The notes under the pieces: generated by a model
Seen by the model: the letters and a program-made list of their open reading frames with translations, nothing else
Told to the model about the DNA's origin: nothing
Databases searched by the model: none
Part shown: positions 4,586-63,482 of the stretch, piece by piece
Layout: every line of letters starts with the position of its first letter
Numbering within the stretch: position 1 is the stretch's first letter
Source of the DNA: Lentisphaerota bacterium
GTDB taxonomy: Bacteria > Verrucomicrobiota > Lentisphaeria > Victivallales > UBA1829
Assembly (NCBI GenBank): GCA_015061915.1
Contig: SUVR01000008.1
Span: 1 to 64,000 of the forward strand
Direction of reading: 5' to 3'
Length of the DNA stretch: 64,000 nt
Translations under genes and position numbers: made by a program

Positions 4586-5140
4586 TCAGCGGAATGAAAG
4601 CTGCATTTCCCGGTAGATGGATCCGTCTTTCAATGTCCGCACAGAGAGTATCCCGTTATCCCAGATCCCGTATGTGGGCAGATTTTCCTGCTTGGGGATG
4701 GCGATGGAGCCGGGGTTGAAGATGATCAATCCGTTCTTCTGCTCCAGTACGGGAATATGGGTGTGTCCGTGAGCAAGGATCGTTCCATCCGTTACCGGCG
4801 GCACATTCCCCCCGTTCCAGATATGACCGTGCGTCAGGAAGAAACGCTGACCGTCCGCCCAGACGGTCGAGTAGTCACTCATGATGGGATATTCCAGCAT
4901 CATCTGATCCACTTCGCTGTCGCAGTTGCCCCGGACAGCAATGATCTTTTTCTTGTAGATATTCAGCATTTCTGCTGCTTTTTTGGCATCATACATTCCG
5001 GGCAGGGCGTTCCGGGGACCGTGATACAGGGCATCGCCGAGCATCACGATCAGATCCGGTTTTTCGGCGGCGATCCGCAGCGTCAGGTTGCCGAGCGCCT
5101 CCGTGGAACCATGTGAATCGGAGAAGAACAGGATCTTCAT
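4586..5140 (-). CDS. YfcE/MJ0936-family phosphodiesterase
   Basis: A 184-residue metallophosphoesterase. The metal-binding blocks are all present in order: SDSHG near the N-terminus, LGD near residue 36, RGNCD near 70, THGH near 105 and GHTHIP near 126, followed by NPGS. Family members hydrolyse phosphodiesters with a Mn2+-type dinuclear centre; the natural substrate is mostly unknown. The start codon overlaps the purB stop by four bases (ATGA), so the two genes are translationally coupled. Full length for the family. Confidence 0.88.
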
Positions 5141-6576
5141 ACGCTGATCGCTTCGGTTTCTGCGGCGGTTTTATCTTTCAGCCGTTCGAGGGCGGGGCGG
5201 ACAACATCCGTCAGGTAGTCCGTCACCTGTCCGGACGCTCTGCCGGTGAAGGATTCGGGCTTGAGGATCTCATCCAGTTTACCAGCCACGGAGGCGAAGA
5301 GCGGATCGGTCTTGAGCCGTTCGATCAGGTCATTTCTGCCGCCTTCCGCCTTGACCACGCGGGCTGCAGCCTGGGAGTGGACGCGGATCGCTTCGTGGAT
5401 GTCCTGACGGTCGCCACCGGCTTTGACCGCTTCCATAATGATATTTTCCGTCGCCATGAAGGGCAGTTCGGACATGATCCGGGCGTGGATGACTTTCGGG
5501 TAAACCTGCATCCCGTCCGTGATGTTCGCCAGCAGGGAGAGGATCACGTCTGCTGCCAGGAACGCTTCCGGCAGGGTGATGCGGCGGTTTGCGGAGTCGT
5601 CAAGAGTCCGTTCAAACCACTGGACTGCGTGGGTCTGTGCGCAGTTCTGGGGCAGGTTCATGAGGTAACGGGCGAGGGAGCAGACCCGTTCCGAGCGCAT
5701 GGGGTTCCGTTTGTACGCCATGGCGCTGGAGCCGACCTGGGATTTTTCAAACGGTTCTTCCACTTCCTTCAGGTTGGCGAGGAGGCGGATGTCGTTTGCC
5801 ATTTTGTATGCACTCTGTGCAATGCCGGAGAGAACGGTCAGCACATAGTAGTCCACTTTGCGGCTGTAAGTCTGACCGCTCAGATAGACCGGATTGGTGA
5901 AGCCCATCTTGGCGCTGACCACTTTATCCAGCGTACGGACTTTTTCCGTATCGCCGTTGAAAAGTTCCATGAAGCTCGCCTGCGTGCCGGTGGTACCTTT
6001 GACGCCGCGGAAGGGGATATTTTCGATTTCGGCTTCCACCCGTGCAAGGTCAAACATGAAGTCCTGCAGGTAGAGCCCGAAACGCTTGCCGACCGTCGTC
6101 AGCTGTGCGGGCTGATAATGAGTGAAGCCCAGCGTGGGCATATCTTTGTATTCATCGCAGAAATTTGCGAGGATGCTGATGACCTTGAGCAGTTTGGAAA
6201 GGATGATCTTGAGACCATCCCGCATCTGGATCAGTTCGGTGTTATCCGTCACGAAACAGCTGGTGGCACCCAGATGGATGATCGGTTTTGCTGCGGGACA
6301 TTGTGCGCCGAACACATGGATGTGGCTCATCACATCGTGACGCAGTTTTGCTTCTTCCGCCTTGGCTGCTTCAAAGTCAATATCGTCCAGATGAGCCTTC
6401 ATTTCTGCGATCTGTTCATCGGTGATGGCAAGCCCCAATTCCTTTTCGGATTCCGCCAGAGCGACCCAGAGTCTGCGCCAGGTGGAGTGTTTTTTCTGGG
6501 GAGACCAGTTGTAGCTCATTTCCTTGCTGGCATAACGCCCTGTCAGCGGGTTTTGATACGAATTGTGATCGCTCAT
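5137..6576 (-). CDS. purB: Adenylosuccinate lyase
   Basis: This 479-residue enzyme splits adenylosuccinate and SAICAR, releasing fumarate in purine synthesis. The fumarase/aspartase-superfamily signature reads [10 protein letters not shown] around residue 282 and contains the catalytic serine. From memory, this and the flanking segments ([26 protein letters not shown]) resemble the animal-type ADSL much more than the E. coli or B. subtilis enzymes. The usual proline of the signature is alanine. An open frame extends 14 codons upstream, but the ATG at 6576 has a good GGAAAGGA site and is preferred. A promoter lies at 6627-6655. Confidence 0.95.
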
Positions 6577-7282: not shown

Positions 7283-7357
7283 AAGAAACAGAGAATGAAA
7301 ATGCAGGTCTATTGAAAAAATTATAAGTTCATCAATATCAAGTTCAGGAGTATGAGT

Positions 7358-8308
7358 ATGGATCAGGGAAATCGTTTGTTGAGAATCGGGATTTTTTACG
7401 ATGGTAACTATTTTTACCATGTGAGCAACTATTATTGTTATGCTCACCCCCGCCGCGCCAGATTAAGTATCCCCGGATTGCACGATTTTGTCAAGAAAAT
7501 GATTTCTGAAAAAGAAGGGATCCCTGAAAAACTCTGTCAGATCGTGGATTGCCATTATTTCCGCGGCAGACTCCCCGCAATGGAGGCGAATGCACGGCAG
7601 ATCCTTCTCAATGAGCGTATCTTTGACGATATTCTTATGCGGGAAGGCGTGGTGACCCATTATCTGCCTATCACCAGAAATACCGAAAAAGGTGTGGATG
7701 TTTCCCTCGCATTGGAAACATTGGAATTGACGATTTTCAAAAAATTCAATATCGTGGTCCTCATCGCCAGCGATGGAGATTATGTGCCGCTGGTCCGGAA
7801 ACTCAATGCTCTCGGAACTCGGGTTATGGTGCTCGGATGGGATTTTGAATATGTGGACGATAACGGAAATACCCGTAATACTATCACCAGTACCCGCCTG
7901 ATGAATGAAGTGTCTTATCCTTTGCAGATGCACAAGATCATCAACGGCGAAGTTATCCCGCGCGACCGGAACTTTCAGGTGGATTCCCTCTTTGTGCAGT
8001 CCAATACCTTCGCTTTCAACCAACAGGAAAAAGAAGGTGTCATGGATTATTTTGAACCGGTTGAGGATGCGCCGGGAAATACAGAAGTCACTCAGATGAC
8101 CGGCAGAATCGTTCACCTGAAAAATGGATACGGCTTCATCGCTCCCGATGATGGTACCGACAGCATCTTCTTCTTCTGGCAGGATGTGCAGGATTGCGAT
8201 TTCAATGAACTGAATATCAATGACGCCGTAACCTACGAGCCCGGCAGAAATGAACGGGGTCCTTGCGCAAAAAATGTGGCGCGGATCGGAGTCGACGGAA
8301 ACCGGTGA
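7358..8308 (+). CDS. NYN-domain putative nuclease with C-terminal cold-shock domain
   Basis: A 316-residue two-domain protein. The N-terminal part is a NYN/PIN-like domain: FYDGN near residue 14 and the block VLIASDGDYVPLVRKL near 140 give the acidic residues of this metal-dependent RNase fold. The last 65 residues form a cold-shock OB fold with the RNA-binding motifs GYGFI and SIFFFW. The pairing suggests an enzyme that binds and cuts or processes RNA in the cytoplasm; this is inference. The ATG at 7358 has GGAG at a good distance, while the in-frame ATG at 7352 is one base from it and is unlikely. It ends at a strong bidirectional terminator element. Confidence 0.85.
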   Translation: MDQGNRLLRIGIFYDGNYFYHVSNYYCYAHPRRARLSIPGLHDFVKKMISEKEGIPEKLCQIVDCHYFRGRLPAMEANARQILLNERIFDDILMREGVVTHYLPITRNTEKGVDVSLALETLELTIFKKFNIVVLIASDGDYVPLVRKLNALGTRVMVLGWDFEYVDDNGNTRNTITSTRLMNEVSYPLQMHKIINGEVIPRDRNFQVDSLFVQSNTFAFNQQEKEGVMDYFEPVEDAPGNTEVTQMTGRIVHLKNGYGFIAPDDGTDSIFFFWQDVQDCDFNELNINDAVTYEPGRNERGPCAKNVARIGVDGNR

Positions 8309-8318
8309 CCCGTTCGAT

Positions 8319-8476
8319 ACGCCCGCACAGATAAGGCGGCATGGCACCGCGCCCGATCCGGGCGCGGTGCTTTTTTTGCAGCGCACCGCACTTTATGTGC
8401 GCTGCAAAAAAAGCGTGCGCGGCAGACCGCTTTTTGCGGTCAACCGCGCGCCATGCCGCCTTATCTGTGCGGGCGT
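8319..8476. repeat. Cloverleaf double-terminator element, copy 1
   Basis: A perfect 27-bp closing stem (8319-8345 with 8450-8476) surrounds three hairpins. Hairpin 1 (8344-8370, 12-bp stem) is followed by seven T: a terminator for the plus-strand gene. Hairpin 2 (8371-8412) is a perfect 16-bp stem that starts with those seven T and ends with seven A. Hairpin 3 (8417-8449), read on the minus strand, is followed by the complementary T-run: a terminator for the minus-strand genes. It fills the gap between two converging genes. Three other copies of the same design are in the window. Confidence 0.9.
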
Positions 8477-8482
8477 GAAATG

Positions 8483-9319
8483 TCAGACCCGGAAGAGTGT
8501 TCCCGGAGCCTGTTCTGCTTTGAGGGCGGCTTCCCGGATCGCAGCGACTTCGATGGTCTGTTCTGCGGGGATGGGAGAGACGCCGGTCTTGTAGAATTCG
8601 AGGATATGTTCCAGCAGGTGATCAAACATACGGGTCCCTTCCAGCGGGAAGGCGTTGCAGCCTTTTCCGGCGAGGATGGCGGAGAAGCCGAAAGCACCGT
8701 AAGTCATAGTTGCGCTGCGATCGTCCGGATAGCGCACGATATAATGGGGCGTTTCGCTGTTCATGACCCGTTCCACGCTGACTGCGCCGGTTCCCAGAGT
8801 CGCCACGATCATTTCGATCTGATGGATACTGTATTCATCAAACGTCCTGCCGCCGCCGAAGGTGGAGACATAATTGAATTCATGTTCTGCCAGTGCGGTC
8901 GTCAGTTCTTCGCCGTAGCGGAGGGCGGAGCTGCTCATCAGAGGCGTGCCGTGTTCAGCGGCGATGGCGAAGAATTTTTCAGCCGTTGCCTTATCCGGCG
9001 CGAAGGTTTTATCGATATACAGCGGTTTCCCGGAGCGCAGGGCGAGATCTGCCAGCCGTTCGTGTGCTTCCGGATTGGAAGGCGCAAGCACGCACAGTAC
9101 ATCGGATTTTTCGATGACTTCTTCAATGCTTGCAGCGGGTGTCATCCCGTTTTCGGCGCACCACGCTTTCAAGTCTTTTCCGTCCGGCTTCGGATATTCT
9201 TCCCAGGCGTACCCCAGTTCAAAGCCTTCAAAATTTTTGCAGGCGCAGAACCAGCCGGTATAATTATTGGCGTGCCATTCGTCGATATACAGATCAATGA
9301 AACCGATTTTCTTTGTCAT
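8483..9319 (-). CDS. Gfo/Idh/MocA-family oxidoreductase
   Basis: A 278-residue protein with an N-terminal Rossmann-like part and the conserved segment KPLYIDKTFAP, where the lysine matches the catalytic EKP lysine of this NAD(P)-dependent sugar and inositol dehydrogenase family. It is shorter than usual (330-400) and its first strand lacks a clean GxGxxG, so cofactor use is uncertain. The ATG at 9319 has AAAGGA eight bases upstream; the TTG two codons earlier is unlikely. It follows an epimerase-type gene in the same direction with a 24-base gap, and together they look like a small carbohydrate catabolic unit. Confidence 0.75.
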   Translation of the reverse strand: MTKKIGFIDLYIDEWHANNYTGWFCACKNFEGFELGYAWEEYPKPDGKDLKAWCAENGMTPAASIEEVIEKSDVLCVLAPSNPEAHERLADLALRSGKPLYIDKTFAPDKATAEKFFAIAAEHGTPLMSSSALRYGEELTTALAEHEFNYVSTFGGGRTFDEYSIHQIEMIVATLGTGAVSVERVMNSETPHYIVRYPDDRSATMTYGAFGFSAILAGKGCNAFPLEGTRMFDHLLEHILEFYKTGVSPIPAEQTIEVAAIREAALKAEQAPGTLFRV

Positions 9320-9343
9320 GATCAAAGTCCTTTCAAGTTGATT

Positions 9344-40522: not shown

Positions 40523-40975
40523 ATGAAACCGGAATTTGCAAAGTATCTGCAGCAAGATTCGATCCTCCTGCTGGAGGGTGAAACCAAGAAGCAAGTTTTT
40601 GAAGACATCGTTCAGCACGCCGCCACACGCTGCACCATGGATGAAGATCAGATCCGTGATGCCGTCTGGAAACGGGAACGTATGATGACCACCGGCGTCG
40701 GCAAAGGTCTGGCTCTGCCCCACATCCGTGTCAATGGCTTCCCCTCTCCCCTGATCATTGTCGGTATCTGCAAAAACCCCGTTGCCGACTACAAAAGCCT
40801 GGATAACCAGCCGATCAATCTGGTGGTCTTCCTCGCCGCTGACGAACGGGATCAGGAAGCATACCTGAAACTGCTGGGCAGCATCTCTTCCAAGGTCAAG
40901 GAAGAAGGCGTGATCGCTGAGATCCTCACAGCCGGTGACGACCGGGCAAAGATCCAGGAGATCCTCTCCCGCTGA
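40523..40975 (+). CDS. PTS EIIA protein, PtsN/fructose type
   Basis: A 150-residue EIIA domain protein. The phosphorylated histidine is H67 in GLALPHIR. The fold matches the PTS_EIIA type 2 family throughout, including the TTGVGKG before the histidine and LLGSISS later. It may regulate or transfer phosphate like PtsN; no EIIB, EIIC or HPr gene is in the window. The gene is monocistronic, flanked by its promoter and a strong terminator. Confidence 0.85.
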   Translation: MKPEFAKYLQQDSILLLEGETKKQVFEDIVQHAATRCTMDEDQIRDAVWKRERMMTTGVGKGLALPHIRVNGFPSPLIIVGICKNPVADYKSLDNQPINLVVFLAADERDQEAYLKLLGSISSKVKEEGVIAEILTAGDDRAKIQEILSR

Positions 40976-41002: not shown

Positions 41003-41033
41003 AAAGCCGTTCCGATTCCGGAACGGCTTTTTT
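41003..41033 (+). terminator. Terminator of the EIIA gene
   Basis: A perfect 12-bp stem (AAAGCCGTTCCG with its complement) with a 4-base loop, ending in six T. The T-run is also the left edge of the cloverleaf element. Confidence 0.92.
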
Positions 41034-41181
41034 CGTGCCCCGATGAGGCGGCGGTCACAGCGCGCCAACCAGCCGGATGGCTGGCGCGCAGCTTTTTTTA
41101 CGCAGCGCAGAGCTGCTGTGTAAAAAAAGTGCCGGAGCCGGCTGCTCCGGCGTGACCGCCGCCTCATCGGGGCACGAAAAA
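41029..41181. repeat. Cloverleaf double-terminator element, copy 2
   Basis: A perfect 30-bp closing stem (41029-41058 with 41152-41181) surrounds three hairpins. Hairpin 1 is at 41060-41089 followed by seven T (41093-41099). Hairpin 2 pairs those T with seven A (41093-41106 with 41115-41128, one G-T pair). Hairpin 3 (41131-41151, 8-bp stem) ends on the minus strand in that T-run. It shares the hairpin-3 stem GCCGGAGC and the T-run flank TTTTTTTACGCA with copy 3. It lies between two converging genes, nested between their own terminators. Confidence 0.9.
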
Positions 41182-41209
41182 GCCCTGCGGGAAAAATCCC
41201 GTCAGGGCT
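41177..41209 (-). terminator. Terminator of pal
   Basis: Read on the minus strand, AGCCCTG pairs with CAGGGCT around an inner GGGA/TCCC stem, followed by five T. It mirrors the EIIA terminator on the other side of the cloverleaf element. Confidence 0.8.
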
Positions 41210-41242
41210 GAGAATCTTTGGAATCCTGTAAAAAGGAATCGC

Positions 41243-41896
41243 TTACTTGTTCATCAGGACCGGAACAAAGTCGGCGCGACGGTTCCGCTGCCATGCGGTG
41301 TTGTTGCTGCCGGAGACTGCCGGTTTATCTTCGCCGTAGCTGAGGGTTCTGATCCGGGCTTCGCTGATGCCATTGGCGACCAGTTCATCTTTCACTGCGG
41401 AAGCTCTGCGTTCGCCCAGGGCGCGGTTATATTCCTGAGTACCCCGTTCATCGCAGTTCCCTTCGATCACAACGCCGGTGCCGGGGTTGGTCTTCAGGAA
41501 GGTGACGATTGCGCTGATCTTGGCGCTTTCGGTGGGAGCGACTGCAAAGGTATCGAAGGGGAAGTAGACCGGCATGAAATCGGGGGCGTTGGTGATCTTT
41601 CTGCCGAAACCGTCTACGTAATCCTGATCTTCCGGGTTGAATTCGCCGTAGCCGCCTGCCTGATTGTTTTCGCCTTCGCCATTGCCGAAGCCGTTATCGC
41701 CGCTTTCGAGACCGAAACCGTTGCCGCCGTTGCCGTTTTTGCCGTCGCCGGTGGTGAAGCCGTTATCGTTGCCGACGGGTTTTTCACCGATCCAGAACAT
41801 ACTGTCCGGGCGTTCGGTGTCTTCGGTACAAGCGGTGGAGAGACCGGCGATGCCGAGAGAAACGGCTGCGATCATAGCGAACTTTGTCATTTTCAT
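41243..41896 (-). CDS. pal: Peptidoglycan-associated lipoprotein (Pal/OmpA family)
   Basis: A 217-residue outer-membrane lipoprotein. Signal peptide with lipobox LSTAC (Cys23). Residues 38-85 are a Gly/Asn-rich flexible linker. The C-terminal OmpA-like domain has FPFDTFAVAP, EGNCDERGTQEYNRALGERRA and RNRRADF, the peptidoglycan-binding blocks of Pal. The rest of the Tol system is not in the window. AAAGGA precedes the start. A promoter lies at 41946-41973, back to back with that of ilvE. Confidence 0.92.
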   Translation of the reverse strand: MKMTKFAMIAAVSLGIAGLSTACTEDTERPDSMFWIGEKPVGNDNGFTTGDGKNGNGGNGFGLESGDNGFGNGEGENNQAGGYGEFNPEDQDYVDGFGRKITNAPDFMPVYFPFDTFAVAPTESAKISAIVTFLKTNPGTGVVIEGNCDERGTQEYNRALGERRASAVKDELVANGISEARIRTLSYGEDKPAVSGSNNTAWQRNRRADFVPVLMNK

Positions 41897-55054: not shown

Positions 55055-56800
55055 ATGAAAATGAGAATGTCCCAGATGGTCGGCAAGCGCCTGCGCGAAG
55101 ACCCCAAAGATGCAAAAACAGACAGTCACAAGATTCTGGTTCGCGGCGGTTATATCCGCCCCGTTTCTGCCGGGATCTACTCACTGCTTCCGGTGGCAAA
55201 ACGTATTATCCGCAAGATCGAAGAGATCATCCGGGAAGAGATGAACGCCATCGACGGTCAGGAAGTCCTGATGCCGGTGGTTCTGCCCGCAGAACTCTGG
55301 CAGGAATCCGGCCGCTATGAAAGCGTGGGCGAAGAACTGCTCCGTTTCAAAGACCGCAACGATAAGGCAATGCTCCTCGGTATGACGCACGAAGAAGCCG
55401 TGGTGCAGCTGGTCCGTACCGAAGTCAACAGCTACAAACAGCTGCCGATTATGGTCTATCAGATCCAGACCAAGTACCGTGACGAAGCCCGTCCCAGAGC
55501 CGGTCTGATCCGTGTCCGCGAGTTTACTATGAAGGACGCTTACAGCTTCCATACCAGTCAGGAATCCCTGGATGAATATTATGAACGCGCGCACGCCGCA
55601 TACGAAAAGATCTATCGTCGTGTCGGTCTGAAAAATGTGGTGTCCATCCTCTCCAACTCCGGTATGATGGGCGGCAGTATCTCCCACGAGTTTATGGCTC
55701 TGGCAGACTGCGGCGAAGACAGCATTTTCCTCTCCCCGGACGGCAAGAGCTACAAGGCGAACCGGGAAGTGGCAGTCTCCGGTCTCAAGTTTGAAAAGAA
55801 TGTCGCCGATGAACTGCCCATGGAAAAGGTGGCAACGCCCGGACAGAAGACCATTGAAGAAGTGGCAAACTTCCTCGGCGTGGAAGCATATCAGACCGGT
55901 AAGGCTGTGTTCTACTCCGATGCCGAAGGAAAGAAGCTGATCTTCGTGCTGATCCGCGGCGACTTTGAAGTGAATGAATGTAAACTGAAAAATCTGCTGG
56001 GATTGAACGAGATCAAGTTCGCAACGGATGAACAGATCCGTGCCGTCGGTTCCGTGCCGGGATACGCTTCCCCCATCGGATTGGATCAGAGCAAAATGAT
56101 CCTGGTGGTGGACCATTCCGCTGCCGGTACTGCCAACCTGGTCGTCGGAGCCAATGAAGCCGATCAGCACTACAAAAACTTCAACTACGGCAGAGATCTG
56201 GAAGGCGGGATCGTGGCTGACGTGGCGTGCGTCCGCGAAGGCGACCCGTGCCCCGTTACCGGTGAGCCGCTCCAGTTCCGTCACGGGATCGAAGTGGGTA
56301 ATATCTTCCAGCTGGGTACAAAGTATTCCAAACCGATGAACTGCACTTATTTGGATAAGGATGGCAAATCACAGGTCATGATCATGGGCTGTTACGGGAT
56401 CGGTGTCGGCAGAACGATGGCGACCGTGGTGGAAGAAAGTCATGACAACTACGGTCCGATCTGGCCTATGAGCATTGCGCCCTATCAGGTGCAGGTCTGC
56501 GCTTTGAATCCGGACAAAGACGGCGTGGGCGAAGCCGCTGAAAAACTCAGCGATGAACTGGATAAACTGGGCGTGGAAGTCCTCTTCGATGACCGGGGCG
56601 AAAAAGCCGGTTCCATGTTCAGCGATGCCGACCTTCTGGGTGTGCCGTTCCGCGTGATCGTCTCTCCCAAGAGCCTCGCCAACGGAATGGTGGAATTCCG
56701 TCTGCGCTCCAGCCGCGATACGGAACTCATCCCCGTGGCAGAAGCCGCAGCTATCCTCGCCGGTCGCGTGAAGGAAGAACTGGCAAAATATCAGGACTGA
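55055..56800 (+). CDS. proS: Prolyl-tRNA synthetase
   Basis: A 581-residue class II synthetase of the bacterial type. Motif 1 lies around LMPVVLPAELW, motif 2 around YRDEARPRAGLIRVREFTMKDAYSF, here given in parts, and motif 3 is GIGVGRTMATVVE. The YbaK-like editing domain is inserted between motifs 2 and 3 (about residues 235-385), and the anticodon-binding domain ends the protein. Ahead of it is the deacetylase-like gene, 18 bases away. It ends at the third cloverleaf element. Confidence 0.97.
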   Translation: MKMRMSQMVGKRLREDPKDAKTDSHKILVRGGYIRPVSAGIYSLLPVAKRIIRKIEEIIREEMNAIDGQEVLMPVVLPAELWQESGRYESVGEELLRFKDRNDKAMLLGMTHEEAVVQLVRTEVNSYKQLPIMVYQIQTKYRDEARPRAGLIRVREFTMKDAYSFHTSQESLDEYYERAHAAYEKIYRRVGLKNVVSILSNSGMMGGSISHEFMALADCGEDSIFLSPDGKSYKANREVAVSGLKFEKNVADELPMEKVATPGQKTIEEVANFLGVEAYQTGKAVFYSDAEGKKLIFVLIRGDFEVNECKLKNLLGLNEIKFATDEQIRAVGSVPGYASPIGLDQSKMILVVDHSAAGTANLVVGANEADQHYKNFNYGRDLEGGIVADVACVREGDPCPVTGEPLQFRHGIEVGNIFQLGTKYSKPMNCTYLDKDGKSQVMIMGCYGIGVGRTMATVVEESHDNYGPIWPMSIAPYQVQVCALNPDKDGVGEAAEKLSDELDKLGVEVLFDDRGEKAGSMFSDADLLGVPFRVIVSPKSLANGMVEFRLRSSRDTELIPVAEAAAILAGRVKEELAKYQD

Positions 56801-56835: not shown

Positions 56836-56970
56836 GCGGGGGCAGGGCGGTCCTTTGGCAGCGGACAGGCAAAAATGCCTGCCGCTGCCAACTGTTTTTT
56901 TTACGCACAAACTTGTGCGTAAAAAAACAGCGCCGGAGCGTGGCTCCGGCAGGACCGCCCTGCCGCCCGC
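56836..56970. repeat. Cloverleaf double-terminator element, copy 3
   Basis: Closing stem of 14 bp, one bulge and 5 bp (56836-56854 with 56951-56970). Hairpin 1 (56855-56891) ends in a run of eight T. Hairpin 2 (56892-56930) pairs CTG plus T-run and ACGCACAA with the complement, one T bulged. Hairpin 3 (56932-56950, stem GCCGGAGC) ends on the minus strand in the A-run complement. This copy lies between two genes in the same direction, unlike the other three, so only its plus-strand terminator has an obvious use. Confidence 0.88.
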
Positions 56971-61062: not shown

Positions 61063-62652
61063 ATGAAAAAATATACTCTTCTGGCAGCAATTCTTCTTGC
61101 TTCCGCTCTTTCTGCAGAAGAAATGGTTGTTTCACCTGCACCTGCCACCCCGCGTGTCAACAATAACACGGAAGGCAGTGCTTACGGTGCCAGTGAAGTT
61201 CAAACACACCTGCGGGTGGATGTGAAAGACGATACCAATGCTGTCCGGTTCATCCGGGACAATAATGCCCCCTTCGTGGTGACCAAAGCATTTCCGCTGA
61301 AGCACGCTGATGCGTACGAGATCCGTGGCTATATTGTGGCAGCAATTTCCGGAAAACAGTTCAGTTCCAGCCCGGTCACGGTGGATGCCATCAAGTTTTA
61401 TGACGGATCCAGTATGCTGATCGTATCTGCTGAAGCGTATCGCTTTGAAGAAAACGGAAAAGGCGAAAGTATCGGCAGCATCATCAGCCGTCTGGACAAA
61501 AAAGGCTTCCCGTACAGCAGCGGCAAGCCGAAGTTCATCTATTATCCCAAAGCCAATACCGCCGCCAACCTGAAAAAAATGCTTCTGAATGTGGGCGCAG
61601 CAAAAGGCAGCAGCGTTGACTTCAGCAACGGGATCGATGCCATTGTGGTGGATGGTCAGCTCAATGCGCTTGTCTTTGCTTTGCCGTACTGGTCCTGGAA
61701 CAGCGTGAAAACCATGCTCGGTGAGTATGACAAACCATTGCCGGAAGTACGGGTGAGCTACAAGTTGGTGGAAGTCGACCGGGAAAATGATGATAAGTTC
61801 GGAATCGACTTCCAGAACTGGAAGAACAACGATGGTGTGGATCTGCTGTCCGTCGGCGGAAGATACCGGAATAACTGGGCATCCACTTTCGGTGCCGCCG
61901 GTCCCGCTCACACCGGCAGCAACAAGACCGAATATTTTAATGTGAACCCCAAATGGAATACAAAATATCTGGATTTTTTGACCAGTACCGGCAGAGCAAA
62001 GGTCCTGACTCACGGTACGCTGCTCGCCAGAAACCGGAAACAGTCAACCGTCAATGTGGCATCCGGCTTGTTCTATGACAATGTTTCGGAGAATGCAGCA
62101 GGAACCACGATCAATGCCCGGATCGTCCCCGGCGATGAAACAGCTCCTGTGGATATGATGGTCCAGCGGGGAAAGAAACAGGAAACCGCCGCCGCAGACG
62201 GTTTTGAATTCAATCTGATACTTGATCCGGTCGTTACCGGTGCCGGTGCCACTCTGGCGCTGGATCTGAGCAGCAGCAGTCTCATCGGCTGGAACAGCGA
62301 TGGCTCCCCGCGCCTGAACCGGAGCAGCTTTAAGACGGATGTACAGGTCGGCTATAATGGCGGCGAATTTGTAGTGGGCGGTATCCGGAAAGTCAGCGTG
62401 GTGCGCGGAGTCGCCGGTTTGCCGTTCCTGAAAGACCTGCCGTTCCTCGGCTGGCTTTTCAGTACGGAAAGTGAATCCACAAAGACCACAGATCTTGTGC
62501 TGATCCTGCAGACCGAATATGTGAACCCCGTCGACGCCGTTCCGGAACAGATCCGGCACGATGTGGGAAAGATCGTGGAAGATGTGCAGCATGGCATCAA
62601 CAGTCCGGTAAACAATCTGGGCTTTGAGCAGATCGGTCTCGACCGGAAGTAA
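61063..62652 (+). CDS. Secretin-like protein 2
   Basis: A 529-residue exported protein with a signal peptide (about 1-18). Residues 65-130 look like an N-domain (AFPLKHADAYEIRGYIVAA). The C-terminal half carries the secretin core, with GGEFVVGGIRK, then GLPFLKDLPFLGWLF and LVLILQTEYVNP. This second copy keeps the signature better than the first. AAGGAG in the end of the first gene gives its ribosome site. No other type II, III or IV pilus genes are nearby, so the system partner is unknown. It ends at cloverleaf copy 4. Confidence 0.75.
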   Translation: MKKYTLLAAILLASALSAEEMVVSPAPATPRVNNNTEGSAYGASEVQTHLRVDVKDDTNAVRFIRDNNAPFVVTKAFPLKHADAYEIRGYIVAAISGKQFSSSPVTVDAIKFYDGSSMLIVSAEAYRFEENGKGESIGSIISRLDKKGFPYSSGKPKFIYYPKANTAANLKKMLLNVGAAKGSSVDFSNGIDAIVVDGQLNALVFALPYWSWNSVKTMLGEYDKPLPEVRVSYKLVEVDRENDDKFGIDFQNWKNNDGVDLLSVGGRYRNNWASTFGAAGPAHTGSNKTEYFNVNPKWNTKYLDFLTSTGRAKVLTHGTLLARNRKQSTVNVASGLFYDNVSENAAGTTINARIVPGDETAPVDMMVQRGKKQETAAADGFEFNLILDPVVTGAGATLALDLSSSSLIGWNSDGSPRLNRSSFKTDVQVGYNGGEFVVGGIRKVSVVRGVAGLPFLKDLPFLGWLFSTESESTKTTDLVLILQTEYVNPVDAVPEQIRHDVGKIVEDVQHGINSPVNNLGFEQIGLDRK

Positions 62653-62661
62653 CAACCGGCA

Positions 62662-62830
62662 TACAACACGCACGGAAAGGCGCAGTCCCGCCCGGAACGG
62701 CAGCAAGCCGTTCCGGGCGCATTTTTTTTCTGCGGTGTGTCAGCGTTCCGCTGCACCGCAGAAAAAAGTGCAAGCCCCACAGCCATACGGCAGTGGGGCT
62801 TGGGGACTGCGCCTTTCCGTGCGTGTTGTA
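62662..62830. repeat. Cloverleaf double-terminator element, copy 4
   Basis: A perfect 28-bp closing stem (62662-62689 with 62803-62830). Hairpin 1 (62690-62718, 11-bp stem) leads into eight T (62722-62729). Hairpin 2 pairs TTTTTTCTGCGGTG (62724-62737) with its complement (62754-62767), with an inner CAGCG/CGCTG stem. Hairpin 3 (62771-62802, 10-bp stem) ends on the minus strand in the T-run. It fills the gap between the second secretin-like gene and the convergent HD gene. Confidence 0.9.
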
Positions 62831-62837
62831 CGAACGC

Positions 62838-63482
62838 TCAGAGACCGGCTTCGTTATTCAGGCGAGTGAAGAATTCGTCCATAAACGCTGCCCGTTCCTT
62901 TGCCAGTTCTCTACCGGAAACGGTAAGCATTTTTTCGGGGAGATGCCGCAATTTTACCAGATATTCCCGGTATGCGGAATCATTTTTACCGTATGCGCTG
63001 GAGTTGACGGCTTCCTCGGCGGTGTTATGGAGGCACGCACCGATCCGTCCGGCGAAATGGAATGCCCGTGCGATGCCGAATGCGCCGGTGGAATCCAGTT
63101 TATCGGCATCATAAACGATCTTCGCTTCCAGACTTTCCGGCACGAGTTTGCCCCGGTAGCGATGTGTCCGGATGCAGGATGTCACATGATCCACGAAATC
63201 CGGCTCACAATTCAGCTGTTCCAGTTCGATCCGGACCAGATCTGCGCCCAGTTGTGCATGATCATCTTTTCCGTTGCTTGCCAGTTCTTCGGGACGGGCA
63301 AAATCGTGAAAGAGAGCGGCTGTCCGGACAACAAAAGAATCTGCTCCCGTTTCGGTTTGCAGGAGCAGTTCAGCGTTGTGAAGGACCCGCAGGGTATGGG
63401 CATAGTCATGACATCCGGGGGCATTGGCGAGTTTTGCTTTTACAATACCCTCGAATGTCTGCCAGAGATCCTGTTCGCTCAT
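62838..63482 (-). CDS. HD-domain phosphohydrolase
   Basis: A 214-residue metal-dependent hydrolase. CHDYAHTLRV (first His near residue 24), ALFHDFAR (HD near 58), a third histidine in DDHAQLGAD, and YDADKLDS (Asp near 129) give the HD-fold metal ligands in order. Substrates are typically nucleotides or phosphate esters; this one is unknown. The start codon overlaps the glgC stop by four bases, so it is translated with glgC and may serve sugar-nucleotide turnover. It ends at a cloverleaf element. Confidence 0.86.
   Translation of the reverse strand: MSEQDLWQTFEGIVKAKLANAPGCHDYAHTLRVLHNAELLLQTETGADSFVVRTAALFHDFARPEELASNGKDDHAQLGADLVRIELEQLNCEPDFVDHVTSCIRTHRYRGKLVPESLEAKIVYDADKLDSTGAFGIARAFHFAGRIGACLHNTAEEAVNSSAYGKNDSAYREYLVKLRHLPEKMLTVSGRELAKERAAFMDEFFTRLNNEAGL

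Follow-up and report, generated by a model that had tools for sequence, protein, structure and literature searches.

Cloverleaf elements at gene 3' ends in a gut bacterium of the Lentisphaeria and in its congener

MITEs such as Correia, ERIC/RU-1 and RUP are non-coding elements of 100-200 bp, which occur in dozens of intergenic copies and carry inverted-repeat ends and strong secondary structure (PMC10969869). REP sequences and PU-BIMEs are dispersed extragenic palindromes, for which roles in termination and DNA binding have been proposed (PMC3733652, PMC2817692). According to the sections of its descriptions used here, SPRITE of Streptococcus pneumoniae is a dispersed repeat with a sequence resembling a Rho-independent terminator (PMC10969869, PMC3049150). 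Bidirectional intrinsic terminators combine a hairpin with T/A tracts at convergent sites and undergo compensatory evolution (PMC5381666), and template switching can make or repair the perfect stem of a hairpin in one event (PMC8794818). Here we describe elements from a gut bacterium of the Lentisphaeria that resemble each of these systems in part; among open-licence papers we found no description of a cloverleaf repeat of such kind.

Fold and neighbors of the four window elements

A first-pass annotation of the window (the whole stretch of 64,000 nucleotides analyzed) had described four intergenic elements, each with a closing stem and three hairpins. All four were found with these parts, and each of them folded into three hairpins and a closing stem. 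The folding energies ranged from -110 to -122 kcal/mol and those of shuffled sequences from -54 to -62 (z -13.7 to -15.4), and none of 200 shuffles was as stable. In element 1, the left closing arm (8319-8345) pairs perfectly over 27 bp with the right arm (8450-8476). The arms enclose hairpin 1 (8346-8368), a middle hairpin (8369-8414), in which T7 (8371-8377) pairs with A7 (8406-8412), and hairpin 3 (8417-8449). The element is flanked by two converging genes. The plus-strand gene (7352-8308) stops 10 nt before it and encodes a protein in which an NYN nuclease-like domain is fused to a C-terminal cold-shock domain. The minus-strand gene for a GFO/IDH/MocA-type oxidoreductase (8483-9325) stops 6 nt after it. 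The closing arms of element 2 (41029-41058 and 41152-41181) pair over 30 bp around hairpin 1 (41060-41089), a middle hairpin with T7/A7 (41091-41130) and hairpin 3 (41131-41151). A PTS EIIA gene (40523-40975, plus strand) lies upstream and an OmpA family gene (41243-41896, minus strand) converges on the element. We also observed facing terminator-like hairpins on either side of element 2 (41010-41034, 41176-41215), one for each converging gene, and thus termination at this site may not depend on the T-tracts of the element alone.

Element 3 has the shortest closing arms (56841-56854 and 56951-56964), which pair over 14 bp, or over 19 bp and back to 56836 if gaps are allowed. Its hairpin 1 (56855-56891), middle hairpin with T8/A7 (56892-56930) and hairpin 3 (56932-56950) follow 40 nt behind a plus-strand gene for a class II tRNA synthetase with editing domain (tRNA-synt_2b, 55055-56800). 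Element 4 is closed by a perfectly paired stem of 28 bp (62662-62689 and 62803-62830) and involves hairpin 1 (62690-62718), a middle hairpin with T8/A6 (62719-62771) and hairpin 3 (62772-62801). It is located between a gene for a secretin domain protein (61063-62652, plus strand), which stops 9 nt before it, and a convergent gene for an HD domain protein (62838-63482, minus strand), which stops 7 nt after it. The nearest named relative of the HD domain protein (93% identity) originates from a Lentisphaeria bin of water-deer cecum, and remoter relatives are found across the Lentisphaeria/Victivallales. As had been noted before, elements 2 and 3 share the hairpin-3 stem (GCCGGAGC/GCTCCGGC). Pairs of T6...A6 were found 19 times in the window, when 0.6 were expected. 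As a genome-wide marker, the plain T6...A6 pattern was rejected, since its hits equaled those of the control. A scan of the window against Rfam gave no match above the gathering score.

Copy number, range and gene context

The host genome is a 2.49 Mb assembly of 31 contigs and one congener (G001) was available for comparison. Since MAFFT was unable to align the copies, a custom structure descriptor (outer inverted repeat, fold, branch count) was used for the scan instead of a covariance model. For this purpose, 1.264 Mb of the host genome (about half) were taken as stretches. Here, we found 34 cloverleaf copies, 33 of them by the descriptor scan, which misses copies with large loops, and one (L252:1756) solely through its orthologue. 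No copies were detected when Markov-resampled or shuffled sequence was subjected to the same scan. Five additional copies were located in unsampled contigs by motif and similarity searches, and we estimate by extrapolation that the genome holds 65-70 copies in total. Thus, the proposal that the elements form a family was borne out. At least 34 copies are present in half of the genome, so that the four described initially were an undercount, and the closing stem is not missing from homologous loci. All 34 copies fold into exactly three hairpins, whereas only 92 of 340 controls with a shuffled interior under the same closing stem adopted a three-branch fold. The elements of the sample measure 117-189 nt (roughly 140), with median lengths of 20.5 bp for the closing stem and of 10.5, 19 and 10.5 bp for the hairpin stems, and 23 of the 34 junctions have at most 2 unpaired bases.

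Outside the host genome, the elements were found, among the sequences searched, only in its congener. Not a single copy was detected in 1.236 Mb of other Lentisphaeria, about 0.6 Mb of which belong to the same family. At equal density, such an outcome would have a chance of about 4e-15 over all of these sequences, and of 1e-7 if the same family is considered by itself. When 137 genomes of the order were searched for a 19-nt motif of the elements, it was present in 2, which both belong to this genus. An exact motif had one match in the viral contigs searched, in GC-rich sequence without an element.

When gene positions were called with a custom finder, 18 of the 34 copies were located between converging genes, an arrangement seen for 117 of 973 gene pairs overall (p 9e-9). 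Nearly all non-convergent copies lie 3' of a gene, and the element edges are usually 3-30 nt away from a stop codon. The finder placed two copies inside genes (L037:7138 and L249:7769), which may reflect errors of start site or gene call; these copies could be located in divergent gaps.

The cloverleaf part of the architecture proposed in the first-pass annotation is thus universal in the sample; the pairing of T-runs with A-runs is not. In about 14 of the 34 copies, a T-run follows hairpin 1 on one strand or on both, and only these fit the description of an element built from two face-to-face terminators. Nine copies have the other polarity (A-run, stem, T-run), which is that of an ordinary bidirectional terminator hairpin, and about ten copies retain the full cloverleaf without a usable T-tract. 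T/A tracts were found in 24 of the 34 copies, that is, in 17 of 18 convergent copies and in 7 of 16 copies elsewhere (Fisher p 0.002). This dependence on convergent context suggests that the family is not defined by bidirectional termination, a role that it has probably acquired. The same dependence is also the best evidence in these sequences that termination may matter where two transcripts meet, and the convergent copies probably act as bidirectional intrinsic terminators.

Stem evolution and kinship between copies

The congener bin is fragmented and its contigs often end at elements, which reduced the number of comparisons. At all nine sites that are spanned by congener contigs the element was present, and three more sites, which are partly visible, were likewise occupied. 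The congener copies found retain the closing stem. Loops and even entire hairpins differ between orthologues. In the congener, the core of element 1 has the opposite orientation with respect to its flanks, which is what recombination between the closing arms would produce. For the nine orthologous pairs, aligned with custom scripts, we counted 21 two-sided pair changes, 33 internal matched pair-indels and 12 one-sided changes. For comparison, 14 ordinary terminators with orthologues in both genomes, also listed with custom scripts, gave counts of 6, 1 and 10 in the same order. The proportion of matched to one-sided changes differs between cloverleafs and ordinary terminators with p 0.0016, where the counts refer to positions and not to independent events. 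Two-sided substitutions alone (21:12 vs. 6:10) were not significantly different (p 0.13). The compensatory changes in orthologous copies predicted for selection or arm correction were thus found, and they are matched in both arms.

Of the pairs in the cloverleaf hairpins, 1.6% were G-T, as against 9.4% of those in 120 ordinary terminators found in the host genome (p 7e-21). For the closing stems the G-T share was 0.4%, a value that is biased by the scan. In Bacillus cereus terminators, G-U accounts for about 5% of the pairs (PMC5381666). We also considered whether palindromes are perfected throughout the genome and rejected this idea, since 13 of the 15 perfect hairpins with a stem of at least 15 bp were located inside cloverleafs. 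Shorter perfect hairpins outside the cloverleafs were about as frequent as in relatives. Taken together, the matched changes, the scarcity of G-T pairs and the lack of a general hairpin excess speak for pairing at the DNA level rather than for selection on an RNA fold. The pairing may be kept by arm copying, which has been proposed for RNA stems (PMC8794818), or by selection for a DNA structure.

The first-pass annotation had stated that the closing stems differ in sequence and stay perfectly paired. The pairing was confirmed; the sequences are not wholly unrelated, since the inner 11 bp or so of the closing stem follow a degenerate consensus near GGCGGCGGTCC and, beside the junction, the left arms have in common a motif that is poor in T (near RGGGCGSMGGTCC). 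Conservation of the motif peaks at about 1.3 bits per position and is confined to the inner closing stem; no loop or junction sequence is conserved among the copies. Two copies, L265 and L267, are 87% identical and located 3.5 kb apart in different convergent gaps with unrelated flanks (iPGM/weak Melibiase_C-like match and AraC regulator/metallophosphatase). Their similarity stops at the inner closing stem (GGCGGCGGTCC...GGACCGCC). This near-identity of the cores with unrelated flanks indicates that the elements disperse and that the inner closing stem marks their ends. It is the one close paralogous pair, and weaker partial similarity ties several further copies. In many copies, pairing continues into the outer closing stem, an effect that either insertion into existing hairpins or later extension of the arms would have. 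Empty sites were not seen at the nine spanned congener sites, nor was a target duplication. When we searched the genome for a mobilizing enzyme with Y1_Tnp only, a single truncated Y1 fragment and no intact one was obtained.

Three observations were made alongside. A congener cloverleaf (L214:4046-4230, G001 contig C258) is located at a synteny breakpoint. Its flanks match about 4604-5276 of the window and L254 5609-6261, which are on different contigs in the host genome, and no element was seen there at either counterpart. Congener contigs C156, C104, C193, C319 and C308/C34 end at, inside or near cloverleafs, which suggests that short-read assemblies break at the elements and that metagenome bins under-represent them. 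Finally, a small gene at L035:9900-10483 (G000 contig C25) lies between inverted arrays of short GGAATGCG-type repeats, and such arrays recur in the congener (C166, C95, C83, C30, C255, C26, C109). Its protein presumably resembles the four-helix-bundle/rRNA-intervening-sequence type.

Possible explanations and comparison with known systems

The explanation we consider reasonably probable is a genus-specific, MITE- or REP-like dispersed cloverleaf repeat, whose stems are kept perfect by arm correction together with selection and which often serves as bidirectional terminator. The sequences themselves show the family, its architecture, range and position, the matched changes, the Watson-Crick bias and the one paralogous pair, and transposition as such, template switching and termination are inferred. 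The conserved property would be a DNA four-way junction of three hairpins closed by a stem. Copies would spread by copying or transposition into gene 3' ends, chiefly between converging genes, the inner 11 bp or so of the closing stem being the putative ends of the element and the outer stem being site-specific. The arms would stay complementary through processes that act on the DNA, most likely arm-from-arm copying in replication (template switching at palindromes), and selection against broken copies would act alongside. With both processes, the sequence would drift and the fold would remain perfect. T/A tracts of either polarity would be retained or gained in convergent copies. A bolder variant, which we regard as rather doubtful, is mobile DNA recognized and propagated by its shape and not by its sequence. 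Here, a structure-specific enzyme would move the four-way-junction cloverleaf into gene 3' ends, each arm would be recopied from the other time and again, and topology alone would be inherited.

The elements might instead be pure bidirectional terminators, in which a pair of facing intrinsic terminators is selected for as RNA and read-through transcripts form the closing stem. Their location at gene ends and between converging genes, the tracts in nearly all convergent copies and the arrival of two tract designs at the same end agree with this idea. We consider it unlikely, since the tract-less copies keep the full cloverleaf, G-T pairs are far rarer than in the real terminators of the host, and transcripts that terminate at hairpin 1 would be released before the closing stem has been made. 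Moreover, the 120 host terminators counted lack a closing stem and the element was not found in the scanned sequence of other genera. Precise three-hairpin junctions with few unpaired bases and stems of nearly pure Watson-Crick pairs would also suit a cruciform or junction-binding site, which would be extruded in supercoiled DNA between converging genes and recognized by a structure-specific protein such as a nucleoid protein, gyrase or resolvase, comparable to E. coli BIMEs. Positive supercoils build up between converging genes, which fits as well. However, the binding protein is hypothetical and tandem and T-less copies require the same explanation, so that this reading, too, appears improbable to us.

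Extreme RNA folding scores are what a structured non-coding RNA family, with a cloverleaf RNA processed from 3' UTRs, would exhibit. However, the element is symmetric, so that both strands fold alike, loops and whole hairpins vary between orthologues, and neither an Rfam match nor conserved loop or junction sequences nor more than a few G-T pairs were found. Such a family is therefore highly improbable. That the inverted repeats are false products of metagenome assembly deserves mention, since the sequences are metagenome-derived and several congener contigs end at or inside elements. This possibility is largely refuted and nearly negligible, since independent bins of two species have elements at the same nine sites, with differing yet internally matched sequence.

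These genomes offer a natural example of inherited structure, with fast sequence turnover and indels that are matched in both arms. With strain genomes, the means by which long stems remain perfect (selection through intermediates vs. template switching) become directly testable. In a phylum that has received little study, the data also suggest a route by which a dispersed repeat can become a bidirectional terminator, through either of two tract designs.

When compared with the systems introduced above, the cloverleafs share with REP/PU-BIME their dispersal as extragenic palindromes and the proposed roles. In contrast, REPs are 20-40 bp long with conserved sequence and tagged ends (PMC3733652, PMC2817692), and no intact Y1 transposase was found in the cloverleaf genome; a conserved palindrome of that length with a GTAG/CGTC-type tag and a RAYT gene does not describe the elements found here. 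SPRITE, compared by its description, is similar as a dispersed repeat with terminator-like sequence. It belongs to another phylum, and those sections of the sources mention no cloverleaf that carries converging terminators on both strands. Bidirectional intrinsic terminators resemble the convergent copies in site, tracts and compensatory evolution. However, they change mostly one-sidedly through G-U intermediates (PMC5381666), whereas cloverleaf changes are mostly matched, G-T pairs are rare and there is an additional closing stem. Hairpins made by template switching have similarly perfect stems and are known for RNA genes, not as upkeep of dispersed repeats (PMC8794818). MITE copies share sequence, whereas cloverleaf copies mostly share the fold, which is a three-hairpin cloverleaf and not a simple hairpin, and for the cloverleafs neither target duplication nor a parent transposon was found (transposase search with Y1_Tnp only). 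Nevertheless, the cloverleafs match MITEs in length, intergenic copy number, inverted-repeat ends and structure, and the inversion of the element 1 core has its counterpart in the inversion reported for Correia (PMC10969869). Like MITEs, they are short, non-coding and dispersed as multiple copies within one genome.
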